64,000 nt of DNA from Crambe crambe (lineage: Eukaryota > Porifera > Demospongiae > Poecilosclerida > Crambeidae): the NCBI GenBank assembly GCA_963924555.1, contig OZ004588.1, positions 7,227,205 to 7,291,204 on the forward strand, given 5' to 3'. Both the position numbers and the translations under genes were made by a program. The notes under the pieces were generated by a model, which saw nothing but the letters and a program-made list of their open reading frames with translations, searched no databases and had not been told where the DNA came from. Below, piece by piece: positions 1,082 to 57,938 of this stretch (position 1 is the stretch's first letter; the number at the start of each line of letters is the position of its first letter).

Positions 1082-1149
1082 CGGTCTCTCCTCTTGTCTT
1101 CTTTCAGCCATGGTAGCAACTAGCTTGTACACCTCAACAACTTGTCCCA
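1082..1149 (-). CDS. First coding exon of an additional ROCO-Death gene (copy F, body left of window)
   Basis: Identical in organisation to exon 1 of gene E (57871-57938). A pyrimidine-rich acceptor ending CTTTCTAG is followed by a short leader, then ATG at 1111 and ten codons MAERRQEERP, then a GTGAGC donor at 1081. It ends in phase 0. The rest of the gene would lie at coordinates below 1. Whether copy F is complete cannot be seen. Confidence 0.7.
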
Positions 1150-3527: not shown

Positions 3528-3946
3528 TCTCATGGCTACTATTTGTAGTAATTCTTAGTAATCATAGGCAGTATACTTTCAGTAATCTAAACAATACCAG
3601 TATACTTTTCAGTATATCACAGGCAGTATACTTTCACTAATAATTATTGTTTTAATCTAAGTAATCACAGGTGGTATATCACAGACCTTTTGAACCCACT
3701 TTTCCATCACTCTGCATGATGCATGCCTGTTGGAACTCTTCGACCCTGATTGTCCCGTCCTCCTTCTCAGGCTTGGAAGCAAAGGGCCGACTCTTGGCCA
3801 ACACCACCCACGTCTTCTCACCCTGCACCTCCATAATCCTCATATCTCGGATGAAAGTGTACTGATAGTGGGATTAAGGTAAAAGATCAAGTGGTGTGCA
3901 TTCAGTTTTCTATGACACAGAACAATAACAGTACATGGAACAAAAT

Positions 3947-16300: not shown

Positions 16301-17378
16301 ATAAAAAAACAATCAATGGCAATGAGACAATTCGGATAAGAATAACTTACAGTCTGAAGGGTCAGTATCCATGTTATAATGCATGTTGGTATATAACAGA
16401 GTGAACGATCCATTCGGAATAATCCATTCAGATGAAGAGTATAATGAAAACATCATGAATAATATATAGCTATTATTGGCCCACATAAAAAGAGATTTCA
16501 GCTAATAATATCGCCATACTGACTCACTGGCTAAAGTTTTCACACTGTTAAAGTAGGCATTTTTTGACAGAAATTCAAAAAGTTGTGGTATGATCGTTTT
16601 GGTAGGTATAGGCATAGATATAATTGTCATAAAGGGTGGTCAATTAATTGCCTGCAAAAGTGTGGTACTGCATCCAGGGTCCTGCTTTTTTGCAGCGCAA
16701 AAAAAGTGGGCCTGGGTAGGCTGTCTATATACTGTCCGAACTGGTGGACTGCTTAAAAGCATTTGCATTTATACTGGTGATATTCCAATCCCCCCACAAA
16801 AGACTCATCCCTAGCTTTAACTCTCCAATGGCTGTTTTACTGTGGCATGCTAAGCTTAGCCATAGTTTGACCAAAAAAAAAATGCATGAAACATAATAGC
16901 CTCGTCCCTAGGCCTCTATTGAAAATAGAGCCTGGTATGAAAATTTACTGAGTGAGATTCCTTTTTTTTTCTTCATTGTTTTGCATATTATTTGCTACTG
17001 CAATACTTATGCTCAACAAGACTGTTTTAGGCTGGTTTAATTATTCGGTGCTCAGATTATTTTTTCAATGAATAAACATGATCCATTACAGAGAGTGTAC
17101 GAGGAATATATGGAAGACTCAGAATTACACGAACAACTGATACTAGACTCTCTTTTAGACAGGTTGCAAAAGAGTGCATGGGGCTGACACTAGAAACATG
17201 AGTGCAATAAGCAAATCAGTCTAAGAGAGAGGGCCACTCTGCCAAACTGGCTTTCTCACATGCAAAATAGTTGCTCCTCCCTTTGAATAGTGCAATAGGA
17301 AATAGCTGATTAATAGCTCACCGCTATTTTTTCAGCCATGGTAGCAACTAGCTTGTACACTTCAACAACTTGTTCCAC
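10339..17378 (-). CDS. ROCO-Death gene A (Roc GTPase, COR and Death domains)
   Basis: Coding exons, 5' to 3': 17322-17339 (MAEKIA), microexon array A, 14033-14060, 11899-13916, 11605-11846, linker exons 11483-11540, 11390-11418, 11275-11332, 10954-10994, 10843-10900, then 10735-10759, 10408-10671 and 10339-10358. The long exon has a P-loop GAGGVGKSS, a WDCAGQQVF switch and GTHGDD in the G4 position (Roc), then a COR region (FYHDLAVFLHYDKIPSL, ADPQWLIKQIAKLL). The 10408-10671 exon is a Death domain (LGLNHPHLKR... PTWASLAKALEDVG). Expected role: a cytosolic GTP-dependent signalling switch with a Death-fold adaptor, as in DAPK1-like ROCO proteins. It lacks the N-terminal LRRs of LRRK types; the array-encoded peptide occupies that place. 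All exon phases agree. Uniquely, the linker exons are tandemly duplicated. The Roc-COR exon is open throughout. The end 17378 includes the leader from the TTCCACTAG-type acceptor. Confidence 0.82.
10843..11540 (-). repeat. Tandemly duplicated linker-exon module in gene A
   Basis: Three copies of a 58-nt exon (11483-11540, 11275-11332, 10843-10900; peptides such as TEHLELAEKGESPSHASSS) alternate with two short exons beginning AGACCCAAGCAG (11390-11418, RPKQHKMAEK; 10954-10994, RPKQCIDMHKTAEK). The 58-nt exon enters in phase 2 and leaves in phase 0; the short exon enters in phase 0 and leaves in phase 2. The module can therefore repeat without breaking the frame. Genes B-E have a single copy. 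The protein segment is a charged, Ser-rich spacer before the Death domain. Confidence 0.8.
14033..14060 (-). CDS. Gene A exon downstream of the microexon array
   Basis: A 28-nt exon reading LPPTEAETS plus one base, phase 0 in and phase 1 out. It joins the Roc-COR exon as ...-A-NYREALK. It corresponds to the PPHEPTEEE exons of the other copies. Confidence 0.72.
14739..16395 (-). repeat. Microexon array A: 16 degenerate units, mostly GCT
   Basis: Diverged ~105-118-bp repeats in the first coding intron of gene A. Coding-strand trinucleotides between acceptor AG and donor GTAAGT: GCT (Ala) in 10 units, GGT 2, GTT 2, CTA 1, ACT 1. Many units carry internal deletions, yet AG-NNN-GTAAGT is kept: at about 15345 and 15549 a deletion replaces CTTCAG by a CTAG acceptor. 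The near-uniform Ala codon contrasts sharply with arrays B-E. This copy is either homogenised or no longer diversifying. Confidence 0.8.
16396..16900. other. Remainder of gene A first coding intron
   Basis: Low-complexity AT-rich sequence continuous with the array, plus a block near 16800-16880 that matches about 720-790, 44690-44760 and 57510-57585, i.e. the common intron sequence of the repeated unit. No exon seen. Confidence 0.5.
16900..17188. mobile_element. Inverted-repeat element, relative of 32905-33200
   Basis: Begins TAGCCTCGTCCCTAGGCTC-like sequence with an internal palindrome (CTCTATTGAAAATAGAG) and ends near ACTCTCTTTTAGACAGG...GGGGC. A related element in the opposite orientation lies at 32905-33200. 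Non-autonomous; no transposase. Confidence 0.6.
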
Positions 17379-23986: not shown

Positions 23987-24023
23987 CTTCCTTAATTTCT
24001 TCTTCAGTTGGTTCATGTGGAGG
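23987..24023 (-). CDS. Gene B exon downstream of the microexon array
   Basis: A 37-nt exon reading PPHEPTEEEIKE plus one base: acceptor ATGCAG, donor GTACAT. Phase 0 at its start means that 3-nt exons upstream contribute exactly one codon each. Joined to 21260-23543 it gives ...KEANYREALKRG. Confidence 0.78.
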
Positions 24024-24063: not shown

Positions 24064-25925
24064 CAGTATAGGAAAACAATTGAGATTCAGAATAACTTAC
24101 ATACTGAAGGAACCAAATTCAGCATCCATTCAGGATAATGGAGATATTGAAGGCATAGGAAAACAATCAGTGTGTAACAATGCTGAGATGAGACAGTTCA
24201 GAATAACTTACAAACTGAAGGAATAAAATTCAGCATCCATTCGAGATAATGGAGATATTGAAGGCATAGGAAAACAATCAGTGTGTAACAATGCTGAGAT
24301 GAGACAGTTCAGAATAACTTACAAACTGAAGGTACCAAATTCAGCATCCATTCAGGATAATGAAGGCATAGGAAAACAATCAGTGTGTAACAATGCTGAG
24401 ATGAGAGTTCAGAATAACTTACAAACTGAAGGTACCAAATTCAGCATCCATTCAGGATAATGGAGATATTGAAGGCATAGGAAAACAATCAGTGTGTAAC
24501 AATGCTGAGATGAGACAGTTCAGAATAACTTACAGCCTGAAGGAACCAAATTCAGCATCCATTCAGGATAATGGAGATATTGAAGGTATAGGAAAACAAT
24601 CAGTGTGTAACAATGCTGAGATGAGACAGTTCAGAATAACTTACACGCTGAAGGAACCAATTTCAGCATCCGTTCAGGATAATGGAGATATTGAAGGTAT
24701 AGGACAACAATCAATGTGTAACAATGCTGAAATGAGACAGTTCAGAATAACTTACAATCTGAAGGAACCAAATTCAGCATCCGTTCAGGATAATGAAGAT
24801 ATCGAAGGTATAGGAAAACAATCAGTGTTTAACAATTCTGAGATGAGACAGTTCAGAATAACTTACACGCTGAAGGAACCAAATTCAGCATCCGTTCAGG
24901 ATAATAGAGATATTGAAGGTATAAGAAAACAATCAGTGTGTAACAATGCTGAGATGAGACAATTTAGAATAACTTACTTCCTGAAGGAGCTCCGTTCAGG
25001 ATAATGGAGATATTGAAGGTATAGGAAAACAATCAGTGTGTAACAATGCTGAGATGAGACAGTTCAGAATAACTTACAAACTGAAGGAACAAAATTCAAC
25101 ATCCGTTCAGGATAATGGAGATATTGAAGGTGTAGGAAATAATCAGTGTGTAACAATGCTGAGATGTGACAGTTCAGAATAACTTACAGGCTGAAGGAAC
25201 CAAATTCAGCATCCGTTCAGGATAATGGAGATATTGAAGGTGTAGGAAATAATCAGTGTGTAACAATGCTGAGATGAGACAGTTCAGAATAACTTACATC
25301 CTGAAGGAACCAAATTCAGCATCCATTCAGGATAATGGAGATATTGAAGGTGTAGGAAAAGAATCAGTGTGTAACAATGCTGAGATGAGACAGTTCAGAA
25401 TAACTTACAATCTGAAGGAACCAAATTCAGCATCCGTTCAGGATAATGGAGATATTGAAGGTATAGGAAAACAATCAGTGTGTAACAATGTTGAGATGAG
25501 ACAATTTAGAATAACTTACAAACTGAAGGAGCATCCGTTCAGGATAACGGAGATATTGAAGGTATAGGAAAATAATCAGTGTGTAACAATGCTGAGATGA
25601 GACAATTTAGAATAACTTACTTCCTGAAGGAACCAAATTCAGCATCCGTTCAGGATAATGGAGATATTGAAGGTATAGGAAAACAATCAGTGTATAACAA
25701 TGCTGAGATGAGACAGTTCAGAATAACTTACATACTGAAGGAACCAAATTCAGCATCCATTCAGGATAATAGAGATATTGAAGGTATAGGAAAACAATTA
25801 GTGTGTAACAATGCTGAGATGAGACAGTTCAGAATAACTTACATACTGAAGGAACCAAATTCAGCATCCATTCAGGATAATGGAGATATTGAAGGTATGG
25901 GAAAACAATCAGTGTATAATGATAG
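24064..25925 (-). repeat. Microexon array B: 17 units of ~111 bp
   Basis: Highly similar repeats between exon 1 and the PPHEP exon. On the coding strand each has a pyrimidine-rich acceptor (TTCCTTCAG), three bases, then GTAAGTTATT. Trinucleotide tally: TTT (Phe) 5, TAT (Tyr) 3, ATT (Ile) 2, CGT (Arg) 2, GAA (Glu) 2, and GCT, CCT and GAT once each. Everything else in the unit varies at most between two states. Spacer lengths vary by one or several bases (110-bp units where GGAAAACAAT is GGAAATAAT; larger deletions at about 24360 and 24980), but the core stays exactly three bases. Confidence 0.92.
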
Positions 25926-26447
25926 CTATTGAGTTCAGAATCAATAACTTAGGGATGGTAAACGTAAAATCTCAGGATCCTTACAGACTATGGCCATTCA
26001 TCAAGACATTCATCTCAAAATGAAATAGGAAGTATTGTTATGTTTAATGAGTTAACTGCTAGTGGTAGCATTGTATACAAAAATTGTTTACTTCTTGACC
26101 CTTGACCCTTGACCTAGCTCTTGCAGCTTTATAATTATACAAATGTTGAGTCAGCCATGTTGGATAACTCTAACTACATGCTTTGTGAGAACTGATTGTA
26201 AGACTCTGTTAGGTTACTGCCATAAAAGGTGCAGATATCCACAAAACTACTGAACCAGACTGTTAATGCTCACAAGCTTTCTCACATGCAAATAGTTGCA
26301 AGACAGTGACTCTAATTCCTATTTTAGGTCAATCCAGTCAACCAGTCCAGTGATTGTAGACAGCTGTCCTCCCTTTGAATAGTGCATGCAACTAGAAATA
26401 GCTAATTAATAGCTCACCGGCTTCTTCTCTCGTCTTCTTTCAGCCAT

Positions 26448-32200: not shown

Positions 32201-33442
32201 GCTGGAAACTGCTCTTGCCTACTCCTCCAGCACCAAGGTGCACGATGCGTGCATAAGCCACACTGACTACACCACTCTTCAATGCTTCCCTGTAGTCAGC
32301 TATATAACATACATGTCTGATAGTCATCCATTTAACTACTACAAGGGAAATGCAAAGCATTGTGGCAAGTGAAGCTTCAGTCAATGACTTCACCTTATTG
32401 CATAAGACAATCCAAACTGGAAGAACGTATATCTATATAAGACTTATAACAGCTGATGAGTGTAATAAGTGATTTATTCTTACAGTGCATAGCAACTAAC
32501 AAGTCTAATGAGTGCACATGTAAAGCGGGCGATTCCGAAAGGCACGCAGGGCAATTCCAAACGGTTCAATATTTCTGAAACCACTGAGACTTTTTAGCTC
32601 AAATTTGGAGGAGAGAATCAGTTTGGAATTGCCCCACTTTACCTTATGTCTGTAGGAACCTGTAATACTTCTACCACGAGCACTTAGATAAGCCTAGCAG
32701 GCTACCAGACCTACAAATAACTAATGAACTTTAACAAACCACTCGATAATTAAGCTTTGCCTATCATGGCTAGTCTGCACATGCGCAGTAGAGCACGAGA
32801 AACATTTTCGCACATGCTCAATACTTGCGTTAAGCAAAATGGAATCTGCTTGTCCTTCAGTCCCAAGATTAGGAGTTACTGTAGTGGAATGTATACGGCT
32901 CGTCTATAGTCTTGGCCCCCAGGCACTCTTTTGTGACCTGTCTAAAAGAGAGCCTGGTATCAGTTATTTGCGTGTTAGCCTCGGAATTCCGAGGCTTCCT
33001 TCATACACTCTCCGTAAATGGATGTTTATTCTGAGCTAAATGATATAATAAGCCTAAAGACAGTCTTGTTCACTGCAGTAGCGAATGGTATGGAAAACTG
33101 GACTAAAATAATTTCACTTGTACATGTATACTACACCCATGCGCAAACAATTGATACCAGGCTCTATTAAATTTTCAATAGAGCCTGGGGACGAGGCTGG
33201 CAAGGCTCATCTATGGGATAAATATATTAGTGGGCATGGCCTGTAAGAATAATATACTCGATCCTCTAGTGGCTCACTTCGCTCACAATAATGGTGTGTG
33301 GTGGCTATATAGGCCTAATTACCATTTCCTAGACTATCACACACAGTAAGTTAACAATAACCATGGTAACTAATTAATTAGTTACTGGCAGCATGTTTTG
33401 TGTACCTTCCGATATTTCTTCTTTAGTGGGCACAGGTGGAGA
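29252..33442 (-). CDS. ROCO-Death gene C (main body; exon 1 degraded)
   Basis: Exons after the array, 5' to 3': 33406-33442 (SPPVPTKEEISE), 30228-32299, 29920-30161, 29811-29865, 29731-29755, 29395-29673, 29252-29283. The long exon is fully open: Roc P-loop GAGGVGKSS, WDCGGQQVF, GTHGDD, COR, and a C-terminal segment with the Cys pairs of CDHCRT and CLRCQED, possibly metal-binding. The Death exon (LGTALGLYYPHLRKIGGEDL... PTWASLATALEAV) is close to B and E. C and E share the longer exon end KIAIPK and the YLEFKEKGESSHTSSS linker, so they are sister copies. The usual exon 1 position (35971-35992) has lost its ATG, so expression would need another start, or the gene is decaying. Confidence 0.72.
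32523..32642. mobile_element. Small inverted-repeat element
   Basis: AAAGCGGGCGATTCCGAAA at one end pairs imperfectly with TTTGGAATTGCCCCACTTT at the other, about 120 bp apart. It sits in the intron between the array-proximal exon and the Roc-COR exon of gene C and is missing from the other copies. Confidence 0.5.
32905..33200. mobile_element. Inverted-repeat element related to 16900-17188
   Basis: One end has CTGTCTAAAAGAGAGCCTGG; the other has the palindromic CTCTATTAAATTTTCAATAG followed by AGCCTGGGGACGAGGCT. Same family as 16900-17188 in reverse orientation; no ORF. Present only in gene C among the copies at this site. Confidence 0.6.
33406..33442 (-). CDS. Gene C exon downstream of the microexon array
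   Basis: A 37-nt exon SPPVPTKEEISE plus one base, phase 0 to phase 1, acceptor ATGCAG, donor GTACAC. Same size and phase as in B and D. Confidence 0.74.
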
Positions 33443-33520: not shown

Positions 33521-35400
33521 AACTTACAGGCTGAAGTAATTCATTTCAGCATCCATTCAAGATATCAAAGGTATAGGCAAAACAATCAGTGTGTAACAAT
33601 AGCTACTGAGATGAGAGTTCAGAATAACTTACATGCTGAAGGAAACAAATTCAACATTCATTCCGGATAATGAAAACAATAAGTGTGTAACAATGCTGAG
33701 ATGAGACAGTTCAGAATAACTTACAATCTGAAGGAATCAAATTCAGCATCCGTTCAGGATAATGGAGATATTGAAGGTATAGGAAAACAATCAGTGTGTA
33801 ACAATGCTGAGATGATAACTTACATGCTGAAGGAACCGGTTTCAGCATCCATTCATAATAATTAAAATATTGATGAGATGAGATAATTCAGGATAACTTA
33901 CAAGCTGAAGGAACCCATTTCAGCATCCATTCAAGAGATATTGAAAGTGTAGGAAAATCAGTGTGTAACAATGCTGAGATGAGACAGTTCAAAATAACTT
34001 ACATGCTGAAGGAAACAAATTCAACATCCATTGAGATATTGAAGGTGTAAAAAAATAAATGGTGAGATGAGAAAGTCCTGAATAACTTACAGACTGAAAG
34101 AACCAAATTCAGCATCCATTCAGGATGATATATATAAATATAGAAAACAATCAGTGTGTAGAGATAAGGCAGTTCAGAATAACTTACACGCTGAAGGAAC
34201 CCAATATTCAGAATCCATTCAGGATGATTGAGGTATACAAAAACAATCAGTGTGTAACAATACTGTGATGAGACGGTTCATAATAACTTACATCCTGAAA
34301 CAACCAAATTCAGCCGATAATGGATAGGGAAACAATCAATGTGTAACAACACTGAGATGAGATAGTTCAGAATAACTTACTTCCTGAAGAAGCCAAATTC
34401 AGCATCCAATCAGGATAATGAAGGTAGAGGAAAACAATCAGTGTGTAACAATGCTGAGATATGTCAGTTCAGAATAACTTACACGCTGAAGGAAACAAAT
34501 TTAACATCCATTAAGATATTGAAGGTGTAAAAAAACAATCAGTATGGAATAATGGTGAGATGAGAAAGTCCTGAATAACTTACAGACTGAAGGAACTAAA
34601 TTCAGCATCCATTCAGGATGATATATATAAATATAGAAAACAATCAGTGTGTAGAGATAAGGCAGTTCAGAATAACTTACACGCTGAAGGAACCCAATAT
34701 TCAGAATCCATTCAGGATGATTGAGGTATACGAAAACAATCAGTGTGTAACAATACTGTGATGAGACGGTTCATAATAACTTACATCCTGAAACAACCAA
34801 ATTCAGCCGATAATGGATAAGGAAACAATCAATGTGTAACAACACTGAGATGAGATAGTTCAGAATAACTTACTTCCTGAAGAAGCCAAATTCAGCATCC
34901 AATCAGGATAATGAAGGTAGAGGAAAACAATCAGTGTGTAATAATGCTGAGACAAGACAGTTCAGAATAACTTACATCCTGAAGGAACCAAATTCAAAAT
35001 CCATTCAGAATAATGGAGATATTGAAGGTATAGGAAAACAATCAGTGGTATATGACACTGAGATGAGACAATTCAGAATAACTTACCCACTGAAGGAAGG
35101 ATATGATGGAGATATAGAAGGTATATGTGAAAATAATCAGTGTGTAACAATGCTGAGATGAGACAGTTCAGAATAACTTACATCCTGAAGGAACTATATT
35201 CAGCATCCATTCAGGATAATGAAGATTTTTAAGGTATAGGAAAAAATTATCAGTGTGTAACGAGACAGTTCAGAATAACTTACATCCTGAATTAATCGAA
35301 TTCAGTCAGGATGGAGGTATAGGAAAATAATCAGTGTGTAAGAATGCTGAGATGTGACAGTTCAGAATAACTTACACTCTGATTCAGTAGCCATTAGAAA
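33521..35400 (-). repeat. Microexon array C: about 20 diverged units
   Basis: Units are more diverged and more variable in length than in B, D and E, yet each keeps AG-NNN-GTAAGT. Coding-strand tally: GAT (Asp) 5, CAT (His) 3, CGT (Arg) 3, TCT (Ser) 2, GAA (Glu) 2, and CCT, ATT, CTT, TGG and AGT once each. A block of several units is itself duplicated: about 34120-34440 matches about 34610-34930. The combination of sequence decay with retained splice-site pairs suggests constraint, at least in the past. Confidence 0.85.
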
Positions 35401-35970: not shown

Positions 35971-35992
35971 CATCTTTCTTTCTCTGAGCCGT
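35971..35992 (-). pseudogene. Degraded exon 1 of gene C
   Basis: The region aligns to exon 1 of the other copies (GCTCAC donor complement, AGAAAGAAAGA body) but the ATG has become ACG and the coding length is 22 nt from that point, not a multiple of three. It cannot serve as the standard start exon. Confidence 0.65.
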
Positions 35993-41000: not shown

Positions 41001-44000
41001 TATTTCGATAATTTCTTCTATGATCTTCTGAGCTTCAGATATTTCGGGGCTACTTCTCGTACGAGAGAGACGTGATGCTGCCAAAGTAATTCCTACTTGG
41101 ATCAATTTTACCACTCGTAATGACTCAGTTTCTCCACTACTTACATCGTATACCAGACGCACTAGCCCAACCAGTTCATTAGTTTCATCATCTTCAGTGA
41201 CCGGCACCCAATACCCTCCACTAACACTTCCACCCTTTGCTGTATGCGTGCTGACGTCCCTTGAGGCCCCACTTTGTCCAGGTTGGAAAGTGCTGAGGTC
41301 AGCCATTTGAGTGCTGTTAACATTAGCTTCATCTGGAAGTGGTTTGTTCATCATTCCACGCTGGAAACTGCTCTTGCCTACTCCTCCAGCACCAAGGTGC
41401 ACGATGCGTGCATAAGCCACACTGACTACACCACTCTTCAATGCTTCCCTGTAGTTGGCTACACAACATACATGTCATCCATAACTATTATGGTGTGTGG
41501 TATATAAGCCTACATGATGAGCATCATGGAACAGACATGTAATGGCTTTGGAAATTGAGGTATAGTTCATAAACATACTACTACTGATTAGACAGTCACA
41601 TACAGACAGTGAGACAGATCAGAGTGGCTTGATGGGAACCTTGGTTATCCAGACACCTTAGGCCAAAACTTTATCAGGATAAGTGAATAGTACAGTTTAA
41701 TTATAGCTAGCACTATCCACCTAGAACAGTGCACGTGCTACTAATGTGTTACTTATCATGTGCATGAGCAAAGCACTCTCTAACCTGGCCTGCTTTTTTC
41801 AAAAAATTTCATAAATTCATTGCCATTGAGGTTTTGTATAAACAAGGTGAGGAAACCCGAGGTTCAACTATACTAAGTTCCTATGAATAGCTAATTAACA
41901 GGTATCATGCATTGTGTACCTTCCAAAATTTCTTCTTCAGTGGGTTCATGTAGAGGCTGCATGAAGACAGGATAAAAATATTTTGGGGCAATGAAGGGTA
42001 GGAAAACAATTAGTATTTGATAATGCTGAGATGAGACAGTTCAGAATAACTTACACCCTGAAGGAATAAAATTCAGCATCCATTCAAGATAATGGAGATA
42101 TTGAAGGTATCAGTGTGTAATAATGTTGAGATGAGACAGTTTAGGATAACTTACACGCTGAAGGAACCAAATTCAGCATCCATTCAGGATAATGGAGATG
42201 TTGAAGGTATAGGAAAACAATCAGTGTGTAACAATGCTGAGATAAGACAGTTCAGAATAACTTACTTTCTGAAGGAACCAAATTCAGCATCCGTTCAGGA
42301 TAATGGAGATATTATTGAAGGTATAGGAAAACAATCAGTGTGTAACAATGCTGAGATGAGACAGTTCAGAATAACTTACTTCCTGAAAGAACCAAATTCA
42401 GCATCCGTTCAGGATAATGGAGATATTGAAGGTATAGGAAAACAATCAGTGTGTATAACAATGCTGAAATGAGACAGTTCAGAATAACTTACTATCTGCA
42501 TCCATTCAGGATAATGGAGATATTGAAGGTATAGGAAAACAATCAATGCTGAGATGAGACAGTTCAGAATAACTTACCCACTGAAGGAACCAAATTCAGC
42601 ATCCATTCAGGATAATGGAGATATTGACGGTATAGGAAAACAATCAGTGTGTAACAATGCTGAGATGAGACAGTTCAGAATAACTTACACCCTGAAGGAA
42701 CCAAATTCAGCATCCGTTCAGGATAATGGAGATATTGAAGGTATAGGAAAATAATCAGTGTGTAACAATGCTGAGATGAGACAGTTAGAATAACTTACAA
42801 TCTGAAGGAACCAAATTCAGCATCCGTTCAGGATAATGGAGATATTGAAGGTATAGGAAAACAATCAGTGTGTAACAATGCTGAGATGAGACAGTTCAGA
42901 ATAACTTACACCCTGAAGGAACCAAATTCAGCATCCGTTCAGGATAATGGAGATATTGAAGGTATAGGAAAACAATCAGTGTGTATAACAATGCTGAAAT
43001 GAGACAGTTCAGAATAACTTACAATCTGCATCCATTCAGGATAATGGAGATATTGAAGGTATAGGAAAACAATCAGTGTGTAACAATGCTGAGATGAGAC
43101 AGTTCAGAATAACTTACACGCTGAAGGAACCAAATTCAGCATCCGTTCAGGATAATGGAGATATTGAAGGTATAGGAAAACAATCAGTGTGTAACAATGC
43201 TGAGATGAGACAGTTCAGAATAACTTACATCCTGAAGGAACCAAATTCAGCATCCGTTCAGGATAATGGAGATATTGAAGGTATAGGAAAATAATCAGTG
43301 TGTAACAATGCTGAGATGAGACAGTTTAGAATAACTTACAATCTGAAGGAACCAAATTCAGCATCCGTTCAGGATAATGGAGATATTGAGGGTATAGGAA
43401 AACAATCAGTGTGTAACAATGCTGAGATGAGACAGTTCAGAATAACTTACTTCCTGAAGGAACCAAATTCAGCATCCGTTCAGGATAATGGAGATATTGA
43501 AGGTATAGGAAAACAATCAGTGTGTAACAATGCTGAGATGAGACAGTTCAGAATAACTTACTTCCTGAAGGAACCAAATTCAGCATCCGTTCAGGATAAT
43601 GAAGGTATAGGAAAACAATCAGTGTGTAACAATGCTGAAATGAGACAGTTCAGAATAACTTACCCACTGAAGGAACCAAATTCAGCATCCATTCAGGATA
43701 ATGGAGATATTGACGGTATAGGAAAACAATAGGTATTTAACAATAGCTACTTAGTTCAGAATAACTGAAAGAACCAGAAATAATGATTGTAGCTATAGGG
43801 TGAATGGTGTTTTTATTGGTATGGTGCTGAACAGAGTGAATATGGAACCAATCTTTTTCAGAACTATCAATAACTTAGGGATGGTAAACAAATGGCTTTT
43901 CAGGGTCCTTACATACAGACTGTGGCCATTCATCAAGACATTCATCAAATAGGAAGTATTGTTATGTTTAATGAGTTAACTGCTAGTGGTAGCATTGTAT

Positions 44001-44577: not shown

Positions 44578-45022
44578 CGACAACTTGACACTTGACTAGT
44601 CAGCCCTCCCTGGCTGTCTACAATCACTGGACTGGACTGGTGGACTGCTTAAAAGCATGAAAACACATTTATAGTGATGATGTGCATTATAGCTGCAACT
44701 CTCCAATGGCTGTTTTACTGCAGCATGCTAAGCTTAGCCATAGTTTGGCAAAAAAAATTGTGGAATGTAGGAAACAGAAGTGCAATAGGCAAGAGAGAGG
44801 GTCACTCTATTATTACAAAACTGCTTATTCTTCATCACAAGCTTTCTCACATGCGAAATAGTTGTATGTTTTAGATCAGTCTAGTCCACCAGTCCAGTCC
44901 AGTGATTGTAGACAGCCATCCTCCCTTGTAAATAGTACAATTAGTAATTAATAGCTCACCAGCTTCTCTTGTCTTTCAGCCATGGTAGCAACTAGCTTGT
45001 ACGCCTCAACAACTTGTTCCAC
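38039..45022 (-). CDS. ROCO-Death gene D
   Basis: Exons, 5' to 3': 44960-44983 (MAERQEKL), microexon array D, 41920-41956 (PLHEPTEEEILE), 39183-41458, 38856-39097, 38731-38791, 38609-38633, 38108-38371, 38039-38058 (ends GHIAHD). The long exon is open throughout: Roc with GAGGVGKSS, WDCGGQQVF and GTHGDD; COR with FYHDLAVFLHYDKIPSL and DPQWLIKQIAKLLALE; Pro/Ser-rich repeats; a C-terminal segment with CDHCKT and CLLCQED. The Death exon resembles gene A (LGLNHPHLKRMKDLPADIV) and enters with EHLTMDDHY from its own acceptor. All phases agree, so the gene looks intact. Likely role: GTPase-controlled Death-domain signalling. The upper limit includes the leader. Confidence 0.85.
39700..39950 (-). repeat. 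Pro/Ser-rich protein repeat in gene D
   Basis: About four to five ~17-residue units (PPSHERRPSTPNDTP type), homologous to those in gene B but with one unit fewer. Confidence 0.8.
41920..41956 (-). CDS. Gene D exon downstream of the microexon array
   Basis: 37 nt, PLHEPTEEEILE plus one base, phase 0 to 1, acceptor ATGCAG, donor GTACAC. Joins as ...LEANYREALKSG. Confidence 0.78.
41999..43733 (-). repeat. Microexon array D: 16 units
   Basis: Coding-strand tally: GGT (Gly) 3, GAA (Glu) 3, ATT (Ile) 3, CGT (Arg) 2, TGG (Trp) 2, and AAA (Lys), ATA (Ile) and GAT (Asp) once each. Two units (trinucleotides near 42493 and 43025) share the same internal deletion and surrounding sequence; their visible differences are the trinucleotide itself (ATA against ATT) and a short downstream gap. 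In both, the deletion has created a new CAG acceptor directly before the trinucleotide. Confidence 0.92.
43734..44959. other. Gene D first coding intron beyond the array
   Basis: Contains the common intron sequence of the unit, the (CA)n run and plus-strand exon-like relics: about 44181-44260, and 44319-44439, the latter open with NGLFTCQRNGDIS, an Ig-like strand-F flavour (Gly-x-x-x-Cys). On the strand opposite ROCO; I cannot assign it. Confidence 0.4.
44502..44574. repeat. (CA)n microsatellite
   Basis: About 36 dinucleotide repeats in the first coding intron of gene D. Confidence 0.9.
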
Positions 45023-47204: not shown

Positions 47205-50200
47205 TTAGGCTGTGTCTTTCTTATCTGCAAGGTACTCTGTAGATTGAAAGCATATATTTTGTAACCATAACAACTACAGTACTAGTAGTTACCTTTCCTG
47301 ATCCTGGAGGCAACCCCTGTGTGACCAACGGCCTCTAGAGCTACAGCTAGACTGGCCCAGGTGGGAGGTCCAGAGGCTTTAGTGACGTTATCATCTCCTC
47401 TCAACCACGCAGCCACTATCTCATCTGACAGGTCTTCTCCTCCTATCTTTCGAAGGTGTGGATAGTACAATCCCAGTGCAGTACCCAGTCCAATTAGGTC
47501 TGTCTTAGTCAGGTTTTTCAACTGTCTAGTGACTGCATGGTGATCATCCATTGTTAAAACCTGTGAAGAATCTATCGAAACACAGACATGAACTAAAGAT
47601 GATACAGTTGTTCAAAAAATTATTTTACCACTTTGTTGATGTCGCTTGGGTCTCTGCGAAAACGAACAAATGAAAAATGGTAGCTAGCTATGTATATATA
47701 GATTCAAACGTACTGAACTGCTGGTGTGTGATGATTCACCTTTCTCTTTAAATTCCAAATACTCAATCCTAAGGAGAATGACATGTCACATAGCTAGCTT
47801 TATATAATAATATAGTCTTTACTTTTCTGCCACTTCATGCATATCAATGCACTCAAGGTGGTGGATGAGGTAAGGACGAGGAGGGACTCCAATCTGCTCC
47901 ATTTTTTTGATCCAGCGTTTAATCAGTATCACAGGACTTTGAACTCGATGTGTTGTCATCTCCAAGGCAATTTTAAAATCAGTGAATTTCTGATGATTTT
48001 CCTCAAGTTTTTTAGCAACACCATTAATCTCGGAAATTGATATTGGACCAGTGGAACCATGGGACTAGAGAATCATATACACACGTGCATGTTATCAGTA
48101 TGTAAGGCACCTATATATGATTATACGAACCTTGGGAATGGCTATTTTTAGCCAGTTTTTCTGATCTTTGTTTAGTTCGTATATCTTGTCCTCCTGGCAG
48201 CGTAAACATGACTTGGTGGTGTATTCTGACTCCAGGAGAACTAAATGCTCGGGAGTGTGGGGATTACAGGTTCTGCAGTGATCACAGGAAAAAGCAAAGA
48301 CCATTTTGATACCAGGGAACCATTGGCTGACTTGATCAGTGAAGCACCTTTGGATAGTGACAATTACTTTCTGACAAAGATCAATGAATATTGGGTTGCC
48401 ACTTTCTCGTGGTTTTTCACGTACTAAATCGATCTGCACAGAATGCTTGCATTCAGAAATAGTCAGTGTGTCTATCTTTGCACCAGATTGACCTAGTGTG
48501 AAAGACACTCTATTTCTGTAGATGCCATGACCAAAGGCTATGTCATGATCATGTTCCTGAGAGAGAGTGGTGGCCAGTCGAGTGAAGAACCCTGGGGGCA
48601 GATATTTGATATCTGGGAATACCAAATGCAATGGAGCAGCTCTCCTTTCAAGAGATGGAATATCAGTAGATGCACCATTTTGTGTAACTGGAAGAGGAGG
48701 GAGTACAGAAGGAACAAAGTACTCTTCGCCCTTGAGATTATGCACTTTGCCACAAGTCTTGACTGGTGCCACTATAAGGAAATGCTTTAAGAGGTCAACT
48801 ATGGACTGAGGTGGCAAGGGATTAAGCTCATCTGCTGTAGAGGCTTTCCAAATTTCTGCATAGAGTGCTTCAACAAGAATGCCACGATTTCTGAGAATGT
48901 CCCACAATCTTGGTGCTCCTTCTTTTTCAAAGCCTTCAAGAGCTAGAAGCTTGGCTATCTGCTTTATGAGCCACTGAGGGTCAGCTATGACTATAGAGCT
49001 TAAGCTGGGGATCTTGTCATAGTGAAGAAACACAGCAAGGTCGTGATAAAATTTCAAGACACTGGGAACTGAATCTTTGGGGATGGTGCAGGCTTCTGCA
49101 ACTGCTACCACTTCTTTCAACGTGACATAGGGCTTGTTTTTAGCCATTCTACGCAACACCTTCCTGAAGAGAACCCATGTAAGAGGTGTATCGACCTTCA
49201 CTTCATTGCTGCAAGCAAAATCATTGACAATTTGGAGAACTCTTCTGTACCCAGGATCAGCATTCTCTCCTTGCCCAGCTGTTGTGTTGTCAATGATCAC
49301 TCCTTTATCACGGACCAGGTAAGCATAATCTTTATCCTTGTACTCGGTGTACAGCAGCTCGAGAATGCTCTCTTTGTTAACTTGTACAGTAGAATCATCA
49401 CCATGGGTACCAATAGGCAAGATACGAGGATATTCAGGCATTTTAGTGATGCTTTCATTGGCATTTTTGTCAGTGAGAGTGGCATCGATGCAAGACATCC
49501 ATTGCTGAAGGAGCTCTATCGTACTTTGCTCCAAAACTTGCTGTGTGGCATGACCTTGATGATGAGATAGGGATAAGCATCGCTCGTGTAGATCTTTTCG
49601 AGCATCGAACATGAGGAAGAACATGGACTTCGATGTTAGAAAGGCTGGCAAGATGCAGAGAAAGACTTGCTGACCACCACAATCCCACACATACAGGAAC
49701 ACTTCAGATTCAGGTGCTTGGATTTCAGGATGCTGCTTGGCTAATTCTATGATTTCTTCTATAATCCTTTGAGCTTCAGATATTTCAGGGCTACTTCTCG
49801 TATGAAAGAAATGTGATATTGCAAAAGCTTGGATCCATTTTACAAAACGTGATGATTCAGTTTCTCCATGTCTTACATCGTATACCAGACGCACTAGCCC
49901 AACCAGTTCATTAGTTTCATCATCTTCAGTGACCGGCACCCAATACCCTCCACTAACACTTCCACCCTTTGCTGTATGCGTGCTGACGTCCCTTGAGGCC
50001 CCACCTTGTCCAGGTTGGAAAGTTCTGAGGTCAGCCATTTGAGTGCTGTTAACATTAGCTTCATCTGGAAGTGGTTTGTTCATCATTCCACGCTGGAAAC
50101 TGCTCTTGCCTACTCCTCCAGCACCAAGGTGCACGATGCGTGCATAAGCCACACTGACTACACCTCTCTTCAATGCTTCCCTGTAGTTGGCTACACAACA

Positions 50201-53200
50201 TACATGTCATCCATAACTATGGTGGTGTGTGGTATATAAGCCTACATGATGAGCATCATGGAACAGATATGTAATGGCTTTGGAAATTGAGGTATAGTTT
50301 ACTAACATACTACTACTGATTAGACAGTCACATACAGACAGTGAGTCAACATAATTAAACAGATCAGAGTGGCTTGATGGGAACCTCAGTTATCCAGACA
50401 CCTTAGGCCAAAATTTTATCCGGATAAGTGAATAGTACAGTTTAATTATAGCTAGTACTATCCACCTAGAACAGTGCGCGTGCTACTAATGATCATGTGC
50501 ATGAGCAAAAAATTCATTGCCAGTGCACGTATTTCTAAAACCAGATACATTAGGTTTCTGTCTAAACAAGGTGAGGAAACCCGAGGTTCCACTGTACGAA
50601 GTTCCTCTGAATAGCTGATTAACAGGTATAATGCATTATGTACCTTCCAATATTTCTTCAGTTGGTGGAGGCTACATGAAGACAGGATAACCATTTTGGG
50701 TTATGAAAAGTGAGAGTATAGGAAAACAATTAGTATTTGATAATGTTGAGATGAGACAGTTCAGAATAACTTACAGACTGAAGGAACCAAATTCAGCATC
50801 CGTTCAGGATAATGGAGATATTGAAGGTATAGAAAAACAATCAGTGTGTAACAATGCTGAGATGAGACAGTTCAGAATAACTTACAGGCTGAAGGAACCA
50901 AATTCAGCATCCATTCAGGATAATGGAGATATTGAAGGTATAGGAAAACAATCAGTGTGTAATAATGCTGAAATGAAACAGTTCAGAATAACTTACAATC
51001 TGCAGGATAATGGAGATATTGAAGGTATAGGAAAACAATCAGTGTGTAACTATGCTGAGATGAGACAGTTCAGAATAACTTACAATCTGAAGGAACCAAA
51101 TTCAGCATCCGTTCAGGATAATGGAGATATTGAAGGTATAGGAAAACAATCAGTGTGTAACAATGCTGAGATGAGACAGTTCAGAATAACTTACAGACTG
51201 AAGGAACCATCCATTCAGGATAATGGAGATATTGAAGGTATAGGAAAACAATCAGTGTGTAACAATGTTGAGATGAGACAGTTCAGAATAACTTACATAC
51301 TGAAGGAACCAAATTCAGCATCCGTTCAGAATAATGGAGATATTGAAGGTATAGGAAAACAATCAGTGTGTAACAATGCTGAGATGAGACAGTTCAGAAT
51401 AACTTACAGACTGAAGGAACCATCCATTCAGGATAATGGAGATATTGAAGGTATAGGAAAACAATCAGTGTGTAACAATGCTGAGATGAGACAGTTCAGA
51501 ATAACTTACACGCTGAAGGAATCAAATTCAGCATCCGTTCAGGATGATGGAGATATTGAAGGTATAGGAAAACAATCAGTGTGTAACAATGCTGAGATGA
51601 GACAGTTCAGAATAACTTACAGCCTGAAGGAACCAAATTCTACATCCGTTCAGGATAATGGAGATATTGAAGGTGTAGGAAATAATCAGTGTGTAACAAT
51701 GCTGAGATGAGACAGTTCAGAATAACTTACAGGCTGAAGGAACAAATTCAGCATCCGTTCAGGATAATGGAGATATTGAAGGTGTAGGAAATAATCAGTG
51801 TGTAACAATGCTGAGATGAGACAGTTCAGAATAACTTACAGCCTGAAGGAACCAAATTCAGCATCCATTCAGGATAATGGAGATATTGAAGGTATAGGAA
51901 AACAATCAGTGTGTAACAATGCTGAGATGAGACAGTTCAGAATAACTTACAGACTGAAGGAACCAAATTCAGCATCCGTTCAGGATAATGGAGATATTGA
52001 AGGTGTAGGAAATAATCAGCATGTAACAATGCTGAGATGAGACAGTTCAGAATAACTTACAAACTGAAGGAACCAAATTCAGCATCCATTCAGGATAATG
52101 GAGATATTGAAGGTATAGGAAAACAATCAGTGTGTAACAATGCTGAGATGAGACAGTTCAGAATAACTTACATGCTGAAGGAACCAAATTCAGCATCCGT
52201 TCAGGATAATGGAGGTATAGGAAAACAATTAGTGTGTATAACAATGCTGAGATGAGACAGTTCAGAATAACTTACACCCTGAAGGAACCAAATTCAGCAT
52301 CCGTTCAGGATAATGGAGATATTGAAGGTATAGGAAAACAATCAGTGTGTAACAATGCTGAGATGAGACAGTTCAGAATAACTTACACGCTGAAGGAACC
52401 AAATTCAGCATCCGTTCAGGATGATGGAGATATTGAAGGAATAGAAAAATAATAATAATGCTGAAATGAGACAGTTCAGAATAACTTACAATCTGCGTCA
52501 ATTCAGGATAATGGAGATATTGAAGGTATAGGAAAACAATCAGTGTGTAACAATGCTGAGATGAGACAGTTCAAAATAACTTACAGGCTGAAGGAACGAA
52601 ATTCAGCATCCGTTCAGAATAATGGAGATATTGAAGGTATAGGAAAACAATCAGTGTGTAACAATGCTGAGATGAGACAGTTCAGAATAACTTACAGACT
52701 GAAGGAACCAAATTCAGCATCCGTTCAGAATAATGGAGATATTGAAGGTATAGGAAAACAATCAGTGTGTAACAATGCTGAGATGAGACAGTTCAGAATA
52801 ACTTACATGCTGAAGGAACCAAATTCAGCATCCATTCAGGATAATGGAGGTATAGGAAAACAATTAGTGTGTAACAATGCTGAGATGAGACAGTTCAGAA
52901 TAACTTACACCCTGAAGGAACCAAATTCAGGATAATGGAGATATTGAAGGTATAGGAAAACAATCAGTGTGTAACAATGCTGAGATGAGACAGTTCAGAA
53001 TAACTTACAGGCTGAAGGAACCAAATTCAGCATCCGTTCAGGATGATGGAGATATTGAAGGAATAGAAAAATAATAATAATGCTGAAATGAGACAGTTCA
53101 GAATAACTTACAATCTGCGTCAATTCAGGATAATGGAGATATTGAAGGTATAGGAAAACAATCAGTGTGTAACAGTGCTGAGATGAGACAGTTCAAAATA

Positions 53201-56200
53201 ACTTACAGGCTGAAGGAACGAATTTCAGCATCCGTTCAGAATAATGGAGATATTGAAGGTATAGGAAAACAATCAGTGTGTAACAATGCTGAGATGAGAC
53301 AGTTCAGAATAACTTACAGACTGAAGGAACCAAATTCAGCATCCGTTCAGAATAATGGAGATATTGAAGGTGTAGGAAATAATCAGTGTGTAACAATGCT
53401 GAGATGAGACAGTTCAGAATAACTTACAGGCTGAAGGAACCAAATTCAGCATCCGTTCAGGATAATAGAGATATTGAAGGTGTAGGAAATAATCAGTGTG
53501 TAACAATGCTGAGATGAGACAGTTCAGAATAACTTACTTCCTGAAGGAACTAAATTCAGCATCCGTTCAGGATAATGGAGATATTGAAGGTATAGGAAAA
53601 CAATCAGTGTGTAACAATGCTGAGATGAGACAGTTCAGAATAACTTACAGACTGAAGGAACCAAATTCAGCATCCGTTAAGGATAATGGAGATATTGAAG
53701 GTATAGGAAAACAATCAGTGTGTAACAATGCTGAGATGAGACAGTTCAGAATAACTTACAGACTGAAGGAACCAAATTCAGCATCCATTCAGGATAATTG
53801 AGATATTGAAGGTATAGGAAAACAATCAGTGTGTAACAATGCTGAGATGAGACAGTTCAGAATAACTTACATACTGAAGGAACCAAATTCAGCATCCATT
53901 CAGGATAATGGAGATATTGAAGGTATAGGAAATAATCAGTGTGTAACAATGCTGAGATGAGACAGTTCAGAATAACTTACAGCCTGAAGGAACCAAATTC
54001 AGCATCCATTCAGGATAATGGAGATATTGAAGGTATAGGAAAACAATCAGTGTGTAACAATGCTGAGATGATACAGTTCAGAATAACTTACATACTGAAG
54101 GAACCAAATTCAGCATCCATTCAGGATAATGGAGATATTGAAGGTATAAGAAAACAATCAGTATGTAACAATGCTGAGATGAGATAGTTCAGAATAACTT
54201 ACAGGCTGAAGGAATCAAATTCAGCATCCATTCAGGATAATGGAGATATTGAAGGTATAGGAAAACAATCAGTGTGTAACAATGCTGAGATGAGACAGTT
54301 CAGAATAACTTACATGCTGAAGGAACCAAATTCAGCATCCGTTCAGGATAATGGAGATATTGAAGGTGTAGGAAAACAATCAGTGTGTAACAATGCTGAG
54401 ATGAGACAGTTCAGAATAACTTACAGCCTGAAGGAACCAAATTCAGCATCCGTTCAGGATAATGGAGATATTGAAGGTGTAGGAAATAATCAGTGTGTAA
54501 CAATGCTGAGATGAGACAGTTCAGAATAACTTACAGGCTGAAGGAACCAAATTCAGCATCCGTTAAGGATAATGGAGATATTGAAGGTATAGGAAAACAA
54601 TCTATGTGTAACAGTGTTGAGATGAGACAGTTCAGAATAACTTACATGCTGAAGGAACTAAATTCAGCATCCGTTCAGGATAATGGAGATATTGAAGGTA
54701 TAGGAAAACAATCAGTGTGTAACAATGTTGAGATGAGACAGTTCAGAATAACTTACATACTGAAGGAACCAAATTCAGCATCCGTTCAGGATAATGGAGA
54801 TATTGAAGGTGTAGGAAATAATCAGTGTGTAACAATGCTGAGATGAGACAGTTCAGAATAACTTACATACTGAAGGAACCAAATTCAGCATCCGTTCAGG
54901 ATAATGGAGATATTGAAGGTGTAGGAAATAATCAGTGTGTAACAATGCTGAGATGAGACAGTTCAGAATAACTTACAGGCTGAAGGAATCAAATTCAGCA
55001 TCCGTTCAGGATAATGGAGATATTGAAGGTATAGGAAATAATCAGTGTGTAACAATGCTGAGATGAGACAGTTCAGAATAACTTACTTCCTGAAGGAACT
55101 AAATTCAGCATCCGTTCAGGATAATGGAGATATTGAAGGTATAGGAAAACAATCAGTGTGTAACAATGCTGAGATGAGACAGTTCAGAATAACTTACATA
55201 CTGAAGGAACCAAATTCAGCATCCGTTCAGGATAATGGAGATATTGAAGGTATAGGAAAACAATCAGTGCGTAACAATGCTGAGATGAGACAGTTCAGAA
55301 TAACTTACAGACTGAAGGAACCAAATTCAGCATCCGTTCAGGATAATGGAGATATTGAAGGTATAGGAAAACAATCAGTGTGTAACAATGCTGAGATGAG
55401 ACAGTTCAGAATAACTTACTTCCTGAAGGAACCAAATTCAGCATCCGTTCAGGATAATGGAGATATTGAAGGTGTAGGAAATAATCAGTGTGTAACAATG
55501 CTGAGATGAGACAGTTCAGAATAACTTACAGGCTGAAGGAACCAAATTCAGCATCCGTTAAGGATAATGGAGATATTGAAGGTATAGGAAAACAATCAGT
55601 GTGTAACAGTGTTGAGATGAGACAGTTCAGAATAACTTACATGCTGAAGGAACAAAATTCAGCATCCGTTCAGGATAATGGAGATATTGAAGGTGTAGAA
55701 AAACAATCAGTGTGTAACGATGCTGAGATGAGACAGTTCAGAATAACTTACAGCCTGAAGGAACCAAATTCAGCATCCGTTCAGGATAATGGAGATATTG
55801 AAGGTGTAGGAAATAATCAGTGTGTAACAATGCTGAGATGAGACAGTTCAGAATAACTTACAGGCTGAAGGAACCAAATTCAGCATCCGTTCAGGATAAT
55901 GGAGATATTGAAGGTATAGGAAAACAATCAGTGTGTAACAATGCTGAGATGAGACAGTTCAGAATAACTTACATACTAAAGGAACCAAATTCAGCATCCG
56001 TTCAGAATAATGGAGATATTGAAGGTATAGGAAAACAATCAGTGCGTAACAATGTTGAGATGAGACAGTTCAGAATAACTTACATACTGAAGGAACTAAA
56101 TTCAGCATCCGTTCAGAATAATGGAGATATTGAAGGTGTAGGAAATAATCAGTGTGTAACAATGCTGAGATGAGACAGTTCAGAATAACTTACAATCTGA

Positions 56201-57938
56201 AGGAACCAAATTCAGCATCCGTTCAGGATAGTGGAGATATTGAAGGTATAGGAAAATAATCAGTGTGTAACAATGCTGAGATGAGACAGTTCAGAATAAC
56301 TTACTTCCTGAAGGAACCAAATTCAGCATCCGTTCAGGATAATGGAGATATTGAAGGTGTAGGAAATAATCAGTGTGTAACAATGCTGAGATGAGACAGT
56401 TCAGAATAACTTACAGGCTGAAGGAACCAAATTCAGCATCCGTTCAGGATAATGGAGATATTGAAGGTATAGGAAAATAATTAGTGTGTAACAATGCTGA
56501 GATGAGACAGTTCAGAATAACTTACATACTGAAGGAACCAAATTCAGCATCCGTTCAGAATAATGGAGATATTGAAGGTATAGGAAAACAATCAGTGTGT
56601 AATAATGCTGAGATGAGACAGTTCAGAATAACTTACAGACTGAAGGAACCAAATTCAGCATCCGTTCAGGATAATGGAGATATTGAAGGTATAGGAAAAC
56701 AATCAGTGTGTAACAATAGCTACTGAGTTCAGAATAACTTACTTCCTGAAGGAACCAGAAATAATGATTGTAATGTTTGCAGGGTGAATGATCCATTCAT
56801 ATAATAGGAAAAAAAAAAGAAGCTATCTCACTAGCGAGAATATTGTGGTATGGTGCTTAACAGAGTGAGTACTAATATGGAACCCATAACTGTCAATAAC
56901 TTAATAAAATAGCTTTTGATTAATCCATAGAAATCTCAGGGTCCTTACAGACTGTGGCCATTCATCAAGACATTCATCAAATAGGAAGTATTGTTATGTT
57001 TAATGAGTTAACTGCTAGTGGTAGCATTGTATACAAAAATTGTTTACTACTTGACCCTTGACCCTTGACCTAGCTCTTGCAGCTTGATAATTATATGAAT
57101 GTTGAGTCAGCCATGTTGGATAAAACTACATGCTTTGTGACAACTGAGTGGTATCAGATCTTAAGAAATAAAAATATTGTCTCGGTTAGCTTTGTTGCTA
57201 TGCTACAGGTTACTGCCATAAAAGGTGCAGATATCCAGAATGGCACTGGAGTGACACCAGGATCAGTAACCCAGGCCAATTATGACATTGTGATACCAGA
57301 TGGTAAGTGGATATTTTCCTAGAACCCAATGAATAGACCATGACATTTAGTGCATTAGTCCCGGCCTCTTGATATATAGGTTGCACAGGCCCTAGCCCTA
57401 GCCCTATAACCTGAAACTTGACTAGTTAGTCCTCCCTGGCTGTCTACAATCACTGGACTGAACCTGTGGACTGAAAATGCATTGTACCCCCTCAAAAGAC
57501 TACCCCCCTTCAACTCTCCAATGGCTGCTTTATTGCAGCATGCTAAGCTTAGCCATGGTTTGGCAAAAAAAAAAAAAAAAAAAATTGTGGAATGTAGGAA
57601 ACAGAAGTGCAATAGGCAAATCTTCCAAGTTCAAGAGAGACTGGGCCACTCTATTATTGTAAAACTGCTGAACCTGCTTATTTTTGACTGATGCTTGCAT
57701 GGTCTTAAACTCTTGAACATCGCAAGCTTTCTCACATGCGAAATAGTTGCAATATTGAGCTCTAATCCTATTTATTAGGTCAGTCCAGTCCACCAGTCCA
57801 GTCCAGTGAATGTAGACAGCCGTCCTCCCTTGTAAATAGTGCAATTGGAAATATTTAATTAATAGCTCACCGGTCTCTCCTCTTGTCTTCTTTCAGCCAT
57901 GGTAGCAACTAGCTTGTACACCTCAACAACTTGTCCCA
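47205..57938 (-). CDS. ROCO-Death gene E with the largest microexon array
   Basis: Exons, 5' to 3': 57871-57938 (leader plus MAERRQEERP, ATG at 57900), 56 candidate 3-nt exons, 50644-50671 (PPPTEEILE), 48131-50190, 47823-48064, 47714-47768, 47629-47653, 47293-47571, 47205-47236 (ends EYLADKKDTA). The long exon is open: Roc motifs GAGGVGKSS, WDCGGQQVF and GTHGDD, COR, C-terminal segment with CDHCRT and CLRCQED. The Death exon reads LGTALGLYYPHLRKIGGEDL then PTWASLAVALEAVG. Every junction phase fits, with no disabling change visible, so this is the best intact member. Without the array the N-terminus would be MAERRQEERP-PPPTEEILEANYREALK; with it, one residue is added per included 3-nt exon. 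Confidence 0.86.
50644..50671 (-). CDS. Gene E exon downstream of the microexon array
   Basis: 28 nt, PPPTEEILE plus one base, acceptor CATGTAG, donor GTACAT. Phase 0 at its start. Nine bases shorter than in B-D, an in-frame difference. Confidence 0.78.
50711..56757 (-). repeat. Microexon array E: 56 units of ~111 bp, hypervariable trinucleotide
   Basis: About 6 kb of highly similar repeats (111 bp, or 110 where GGAAAACAAT is GGAAATAAT). On the coding strand each unit reads TTCCTTCAG, NNN, GTAAGTTATT. First trinucleotide in transcription order is GAA at 56743-56745; the last is TCT at 50775-50777. Tally of 56: CCT (Pro) 12, TCT (Ser) 10, TAT (Tyr) 9, ATT (Ile) 5, GCT (Ala) 5, CAT (His) 5, GAA (Glu) 5, CGT (Arg) 2, GGT (Gly) 2, TTT (Phe) 1. 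Ten states at this site contrast with one or two states elsewhere. Three units (about 50990, 52490, 53112) have lost the CTTCAG segment but retain a CAG acceptor. Higher-order duplications exist (52450 region with 53073; 54493-54600 with 55488-55600). Intervening introns would be ~107-108 nt, within the 47-344 nt range seen in GGPS1 here. Confidence 0.95.
50775..50777 (-). CDS. Representative candidate 3-nt microexon (TCT, Ser), last unit of array E
   Basis: On the minus strand ...CCTTCAG precedes and GTAAGTTATTC follows. As the 3'-most unit it would splice directly to 50644-50671. Given as the exemplar; the other units share this layout. Splicing itself is not shown by the sequence. Confidence 0.55.
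57209..57302 (+). pseudogene. Possible plus-strand exon relic (copy of 418-511)
   Basis: Same open 94-nt block between CTACAG and GGTAAGT, inside the first coding intron of gene E on the opposite strand. Unassigned. Confidence 0.3.

Follow-up and report, generated by a model that had tools for sequence, protein, structure and literature searches.

Tandem arrays of candidate single-codon exons in ROCO GTPase genes of the sponge Crambe crambe

The genome assembly of the sponge Crambe crambe (143 Mb in 119 contigs) contains, on contig C11 (OZ004588.1), a ROCO GTPase gene in which a long array of repeat units separates exon 1 from the next recognisable exon, and each unit presents exactly three bases between a splice acceptor and a splice donor. 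We asked what these three bases are for. The window analysed here is the stretch C11:7227205-7291204 (64,000 bases; positions below are those of the window unless a contig is named). In the interpretation that we consider probable, each unit would be an exon of one codon, and the exons would be spliced in order into an N-terminal peptide evolving by gain and loss of whole residues. The predicted peptides, placed ahead of the Roc-COR GTPase, would on our best reading be 16-88 residues long.

Anatomy and distribution of the arrays

The focal array lies on the minus strand at 50775..56745 and comprises 56 predicted one-codon exons, which in order spell ESYPEIYYPAHPESYEPYYHPAHPYAYSSEPSPIPGHSPIRGHFSAPARSYSIIPS, with the first codon bases running from 56745 down to 50777. 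Each unit consists of a pyrimidine tract, an acceptor (CAG in 55 units and TAG in one), three bases, and the donor GTAAG (56 of 56). Spacing is 111 bp in 30 of the 55 intervals and ranges over 87-111 bp. The three bases take ten states, namely CCT (12 units), TCT (10), TAT (9), GAA, ATT, GCT, and CAT (5 each), GGT and CGT (2 each), and TTT (1). The sequence TTCAGNNNGTAAGT occurs 111 times in the window, exclusively on the minus strand, compared with a mean of 0.06 in 100 dinucleotide shuffles. A gap of three bases between CAG and GTAAG is found 122 times on the minus strand vs 8 times on the plus strand. No other gap length from 0 to 12 exceeds nine occurrences on the minus strand, and the listed four-base gaps are all outside the arrays. 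The codon positions, spacing, ten states, and motif enrichment establish the array of acceptor, three bases, and donor that the first-pass annotation of this DNA had described. Its claim of phase-0 flanks holds as well: exon 1 (57871..57900, minus strand, MAERRQEERP) ends in phase 0 at GTGAGC, and the exon after the array (50644..50671, minus strand, PPPTEEILE plus one base) starts in phase 0.

The same annotation understated the extent of the phenomenon, having missed that the window holds five arrays (56, 16, 20, 17, and 16 units, 125 in all) and that such units recur elsewhere in the genome. The main cluster, at C11 7.13-7.28 Mb, contains 13 arrays with 535 units; a second cluster about 1.3 Mb away, at C11 5.83-5.89 Mb, contains four arrays with 100 units; and a 10-kb stretch of contig C1 (8345001-8355000) adds 88 units in an array that may run past that stretch. 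Array sizes range from 16 to 88 units. Genome-wide, the 30-base unit core with up to three mismatches matches at 3,678 places (298 forward, 3,380 reverse), whereas the reversed-pattern control at the same tolerance gave none. Most of these matches were counted only, and codons were read in the 723 units of the main, 5.8-Mb, and C1 clusters. The main cluster also has 13 COR-A domain matches, which lie on the same strand as its 13 arrays and pair with them in order.

Codon-like behaviour of the three bases

None of the 723 units contains a stop codon. The exact 25-base core combined with TAA, TGA, or TAG has no match genome-wide; the exact 30-base core with a purine as third base has 400. Shuffling the third base within each of the three clusters predicts 6.7, 4.6, and 3.4 stops, respectively, and the probability of observing zero is 4.5e-4, 3.5e-4, and 2.0e-4. 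The units encode 19 amino acids via 40 codons. Cysteine is absent from all of them, though TGT would suit the cluster with default T.

The third base has a cluster-specific default. At fourfold-degenerate codons it is T in 262 of 273 units of the main cluster, A in 42 of 56 at 5.8 Mb, and G in 27 of 32 on C1, and it leaves the default mainly where the amino acid requires it: off-default codons include GAA, AAA, and TGG among the T-cluster units, and GAT, TAT, and TTT among those with default A or G. Within the T cluster, purine endings are found in 49 of 166 codons starting with GA, AA, or CA vs 11 of 273 fourfold codons (Fisher p = 1.1e-13). Units starting with TA, for which a purine ending would create a stop codon, never have one (0/36, 0/7, and 0/4 in the three clusters); 0/36 would arise with probability 3e-6 if these units had the purine rate of the GA/AA/CA codons and 0.23 if they had the fourfold rate. 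Fourfold sites of the ROCO exon carry T at 118 of 308 positions, so that the constancy of the third base stems from the repeat. Since the third base, with its default of T, A, or G by cluster, belongs to the repeat, we think it unlikely that introns were inserted between the codons of an ordinary exon. By eye, the spelled strings resemble protein segments, for example MGNLSSLLEARRRLEEEARLEEEARRHSSH, and some are rich in proline, tyrosine, or aspartate; their composition differs from that of the ROCO exon.

The splice sites were examined with a profile hidden Markov model (HMM) in which the codon was masked and which was trained on 80 units. Of its 639 hits, 534 fall in the main stretch, and in all of these the acceptor AG and the donor GTA are invariant. 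Non-consensus bases occupy the first, second, and third codon positions in 62.5%, 62.2%, and 14.8% of these hits, respectively, and 12 of the 107 other columns reach 10% or more. Five of the 639 hits lack a matching motif unit; one is at C11:5867659, and the other four are cut short at the core or are located at array ends in the 5.8-Mb cluster. Of the 723 units, 709 have the donor GTAAGT; 688 have CAG as acceptor, 26 TAG, and 9 AAG. The remaining wide gaps inside arrays hold units with other donors. The main-cluster introns (n = 522, 54-130 bp) have lengths of 0, 1, and 2 modulo 3 in 299, 81, and 142 cases, and 479 contain stops in all three frames. Unspliced read-through is ruled out, since 223 of the 522 introns are not a multiple of three long and 479 carry stops in every frame.

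The flanking exons fit the same frame where they are recognised. An exon 1 starting with MAE was recognised for 9 of the 13 main-cluster arrays, where it is 18-30 nt long and always a multiple of three, and for all four arrays at 5.8 Mb. In these genes it ends in phase 0, and its coding part differs in length between paralogs by multiples of 3 nt. The exon that follows the array, likewise recognised in 9 of 13 main-cluster arrays, is 28, 31, or 37 nt long, always 1 modulo 3. The other four main-cluster genes (three of the SDDW type and the one at C11:7183561) have an ATG directly before GTGAGC and, if that ATG is the start, would have a phase-0 exon 1 of one residue. Models joining the array codons, the next exon, and the ROCO exon were built for 8 of the 13 genes; seven are open for 764-837 residues, and one (array C11:7253049-7251307) stops at 257. 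The focal-gene model, with exon 1 and one further exon included, is open for 842 residues. Thus the existence of single-codon exons in the ROCO gene, proposed in the first-pass annotation from the focal array, is strongly supported by the zero stops among 723 units, by the third-base behaviour in three clusters, and by the invariant AG and GTA, and further by the phase-0 flanks where recognised and the pairing of arrays with genes.

Proposed mechanism, competing readings and evolution of the arrays

We propose that each three-base unit is an exon holding one codon, and that the spliceosome would remove the introns of about 108 bases successively, by intron definition and probably stepwise, with each joined codon then serving as the upstream exon of the next intron. 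All codons would be included in order, ahead of the Roc-COR GTPase. Full inclusion is favoured because the units read are free of stops and retain their splice sites; inclusion of a subset is compatible with the same units and is not needed to account for them. Since the exon would equal the codon and the intron the repeat unit, unequal exchange could add or delete whole residues and leave the frame intact; exchange between copies would keep the introns alike, and selection would hold or diversify the amino acids.

Comparisons between arrays are consistent with this scheme. The paralogous arrays at C11:7202467 and C11:7169815 differ by 49 substitutions in 6,513 intron positions and, over 68 aligned codons, by one synonymous and no amino-acid change, which at 0.75% intron divergence is too few to prove constraint. 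They also differ by four large gaps of 228, 94, 119, and 87 bases that correspond to the whole units PS, P, W, and H, and thus by five whole codons. The 20-codon array of the window matches their string apart from one 52-codon block. When units with no difference in the compared flanks (70-84 columns) are paired, 83.6% of the 2,652 pairs differ in amino acid and 0.23% synonymously. In three-unit blocks with identical introns 4 of 195 codons differ, and in six-unit blocks with less than 1% intron divergence 17 of 378 codons differ in amino acid at a mean intron divergence of 0.49%; neither the unit pairs nor the block pairs are independent, and the block pairs overlap. The different codons in unit pairs with like introns, taken with the 4 of 195 in blocks, indicate that single introns are shared by units with different codons, while whole duplicated blocks keep their codons. 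Homogenised introns together with purifying selection on the codons would suffice to explain this pattern; the 17 changes in 378 codons suggest, and do not establish, diversifying selection, and because the block pairs overlap we do not choose between the two. Homogenisation cluster by cluster is suggested by the C1 array, whose introns have a sequence of their own and whose third-base default is G.

Several observations, in addition to the small numbers and overlaps just noted, weigh against one-codon exons read in order. The third-base default has exceptions at fourfold codons (11/273, 14/56, and 5/32 in the three clusters), and two 5.8-Mb units counted among the 723 are 18 bp apart and cannot both be exons. 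When the 20-codon array is aligned with each of the two paralogous arrays, two of 20 codons differ, bordering the large gap (intron divergence 4.9% and 3.3%). The 723 units were picked by a motif that itself contains AG and GTA; because the HMM is local and its training units were motif-chosen, a unit with a decayed core could be trimmed or missed. Invariance is also seen at a distance from the splice sites, in HMM columns 83, 104, and 105 and at the alignment ends, and by itself is therefore not unique to AG and GT; on these grounds the invariant AG and GTA count as support and not as proof. The most variable intron column, a two-state one, departs from consensus in 46% of hits. A stray unit at C11:5867659 has the altered donor GTAGCT. 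The candidate exons after the 5.8-Mb arrays are 2, 2, 0, and 2 modulo 3 in length and dissimilar in sequence to the PPPTEE exon. The spelled N-terminus of one gene (residues 1-95) found none of 5,286 candidates at E <= 0.001. An exon of three bases is expected to be too short for both of its splice sites to be bound simultaneously. Finally, the fourth gene of the window has a stop-free array and an interrupted ROCO frame, split at 21239-23562 into two overlapping open frames; it may be a pseudogene, since the ROCO frame is split even though the array is without stops.

The competing reading that survives best keeps the same one-codon exons and has them alternatively spliced, so that transcripts with different subsets would yield combinatorial N-terminal peptides. 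Exons of 3 nt keep the frame in any subset, their splice sites are interchangeable copies, and the tandem symmetric exons of brown-algal ROCO genes, which encode leucine-rich repeats (LRRs), are described as alternatively spliced (PMC11378527). We noticed no mark of exon choice, although such signals were not specifically searched for, and two paralogs keep the order of 68 codons, as common descent alone would also predict. The addition of residue subsets had been part of the first-pass annotation; as reading all exons in order already explains the data, we set it aside as rather unlikely. The arrays might instead be an untranslated intronic satellite, with splicing straight from exon 1 to the PPPTEE-type exon and the units acting as decoy or recursive splice sites. 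Both of these exons are in phase 0 where recognised, so skipping every unit would stay in frame; a satellite, however, predicts neither the absence of stops, nor a third base obeying the genetic code whichever of the three defaults a cluster has, nor the high variety at two bases inside a near-constant repeat, and we judge it improbable. Targeted mutation of two hypermutable bases, in place of coding selection, would explain the concentration of variation at positions 1 and 2 and is very improbable in view of the third base, which is off default mainly where the amino acid requires it, of the TA units that never end in a purine, and of the missing cysteine. That the arrays once coded and are now decaying relics, as the one window gene with an interrupted ROCO frame might suggest, is scarcely credible when AG and GTA are invariant in all 534 hits and not one of the 723 units holds a stop.

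Under ordered inclusion of one-codon exons, the ROCO setting would be compatible with a role of the peptide in recognition or interaction. Tentatively, and with more doubt than conviction, we suggest that a signalling GTPase family, perhaps of immune or self-recognition function, keeps a recognition peptide as a string of single-codon exons with concertedly evolving introns, and that evolution, possibly with somatic splicing, edits this peptide residue by residue without risk to the frame. If the units are translated, exon and codon coincide for dozens of residues, splicing assembles the N-terminus residue by residue, and exon definition operates at its lower limit many times per transcript. 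Such genes would then offer a natural system for stepwise splicing of minimal exons and a protein diversified by insertion and deletion of whole residues with no frameshift risk, and standard annotation and short-read alignment would miss the N-termini of the family.

Host genes, related systems and further observations

The focal gene was confirmed as a ROCO GTPase, in which Roc (PF08477, E 3.2e-07) is followed by COR (PF16095, E 1.6e-16) in Pfam searches of 48095-50206. Its main ROCO exon, with Roc and COR-A, lies at 48131..50190 on the minus strand, the next predicted exon at 47823..48064 is in frame with it, and an open frame with a candidate death-fold region follows at 47282..47611 (both minus strand). 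The ROCO-Death label of the first-pass annotation thus stands in its Roc and COR-A part, while the Death part is weakly supported and not confirmed: none of the five paralogous frames has a Pfam Death match at E up to 10. The predicted structure of the candidate region has a mean predicted local distance difference test score (pLDDT) of 59, and with this low-confidence model the Foldseek ranks 1-12 are all death-fold chains, PYD included (best E 0.21), so the C-terminal region may lean weakly towards a death fold. The ROCO family of this genome is very large, with 150 COR-A matches scored of 339 candidates, which are spread over contigs C1, C3, C5, C8, C9, C11, and others and often form tandem clusters.

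The further genes of the window, all on the minus strand, are organised in the same way. The second has exon 1 at 44960..44983 (MAERQEKL, phase 0), an array of 16 predicted one-codon exons at 42055..43666 (WEEIDRIGIGWIEKRG), and the following exon at 41920..41956 (PLHEPTEEEILE plus one base). In the third, the end of exon 1 at 35971..35973 is an ATG, presumably the start, before the donor GTGAGC; its array of 20 predicted exons occupies 33528..35378 (SDDWDEDRSREDRSHLHIHP), and the likely next exon is at 33406..33442 (37 nt, counted by hand on the printed sequence). The fourth, with the interrupted ROCO frame downstream, has exon 1 at 26418..26447 (MAERRREKKP), an array of 17 predicted exons at 24101..25845 (YYEFIDPFERIRAFFFY), and the next exon at 23987..24023 (PPHEPTEEEIKE plus one base). 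The fifth has exon 1 at 17322..17339 (MAEKIA) and an array of 16 predicted exons at 14808..16353 (TVLVAGAAAAAAAGAA), mostly alanine, that looks recently expanded. Exon 1 of a sixth gene lies at 1082..1111, with its 71-unit array just beyond the window. Outside the window, one 5.8-Mb gene has a possible 7-nt exon, CAAGAAG before GTATGT, judged by eye, and two arrays are preceded at about 3 kb by 25-nt MAHKLGCK matches, which were not taken as exon 1. The gene at C11:7183561 starts with MGNLSS, which, as spotted after the fact, resembles an N-myristoylation signal.

Dscam is known for tandemly duplicated exons that are domain-sized and alternatively spliced; the present arrays share the tandem duplication and are unlike it in the other two respects, being predicted as one-codon exons read in order. 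Dscam-type arrays are also mentioned in PMC11378527. The brown-algal LRR-ROCO genes described there have tandem 72-bp phase-2 LRR exons, with exon shuffling, diversifying selection, and a proposed recognition role. Like the sponge genes they are ROCO GTPase genes with an N-terminal tandem array of symmetric exons; the sponge exons, in contrast, are predicted to be 3 nt long with phase-0 flanks and near-constant introns. Schistosome micro-exon genes (MEGs) encode secreted proteins and have 10-20 exons per gene, mostly of 15 bp (6-81 bp in the main text and 3-81 in the abstract), with introns of 0.1-5 kb (PMC10526429). The likeness is the row of many tiny symmetric exons (here the 723 predicted units of 3 nt); unlike MEGs, the sponge arrays have predicted exons of 3 bp, not mostly 15 bp, with 16-88 per array, near-identical introns of 54-130 bp, and a place in ROCO GTPase genes. 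Isolated 3-nt microexons are known, for example in homothorax, a gene whose internal exons are bounded by CAG and GTGAGT or GTAAGT (PMC7392893); these hold exactly one codon, as predicted here, and differ in being single. The single-nucleotide exon of Arabidopsis APC11 is spliced constitutively, with successive removal of its two introns proposed (PMC4674806); it is shorter, single, and not part of a repeat, and stepwise removal is likewise our proposal for the sponge arrays. Among the open-licence papers listed in our searches there was no report of a tandem array of one-codon exons. The architecture could be new in kind, because within a repeat every codon of the coding string is split off from the next; on a stricter view it could be an extreme form of the micro-exon gene.

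The core pattern matched once, in a single stretch, among prokaryote contigs and likewise among viral contigs, which we took as chance. On the strand antisense to the focal array (50691-51710, plus strand) there are long open frames (339 amino acids), which gene finders may call as repeat proteins. Used as a query, the antisense frame had one match, a 216-amino-acid protein (P0121) on a 5,690-bp NCBI contig, which by eye looks like the antisense of a related unit array; this suggests, without proving, that such arrays occur in a second assembly. A single unit-like match lies beside an array on the opposite strand, at C11:7208841 (plus strand). Several paralogs carry a lone CAG/TAG-TCT-GTAAGG motif about 140-230 bases upstream of the array, at window 56951 and at C11:7253191, 7227370, 7212616, 7155744, and 7132798, and near window 43922 TCT is followed by GTATGT. 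The lone upstream motif may be an extra or ancestral one-codon exon.

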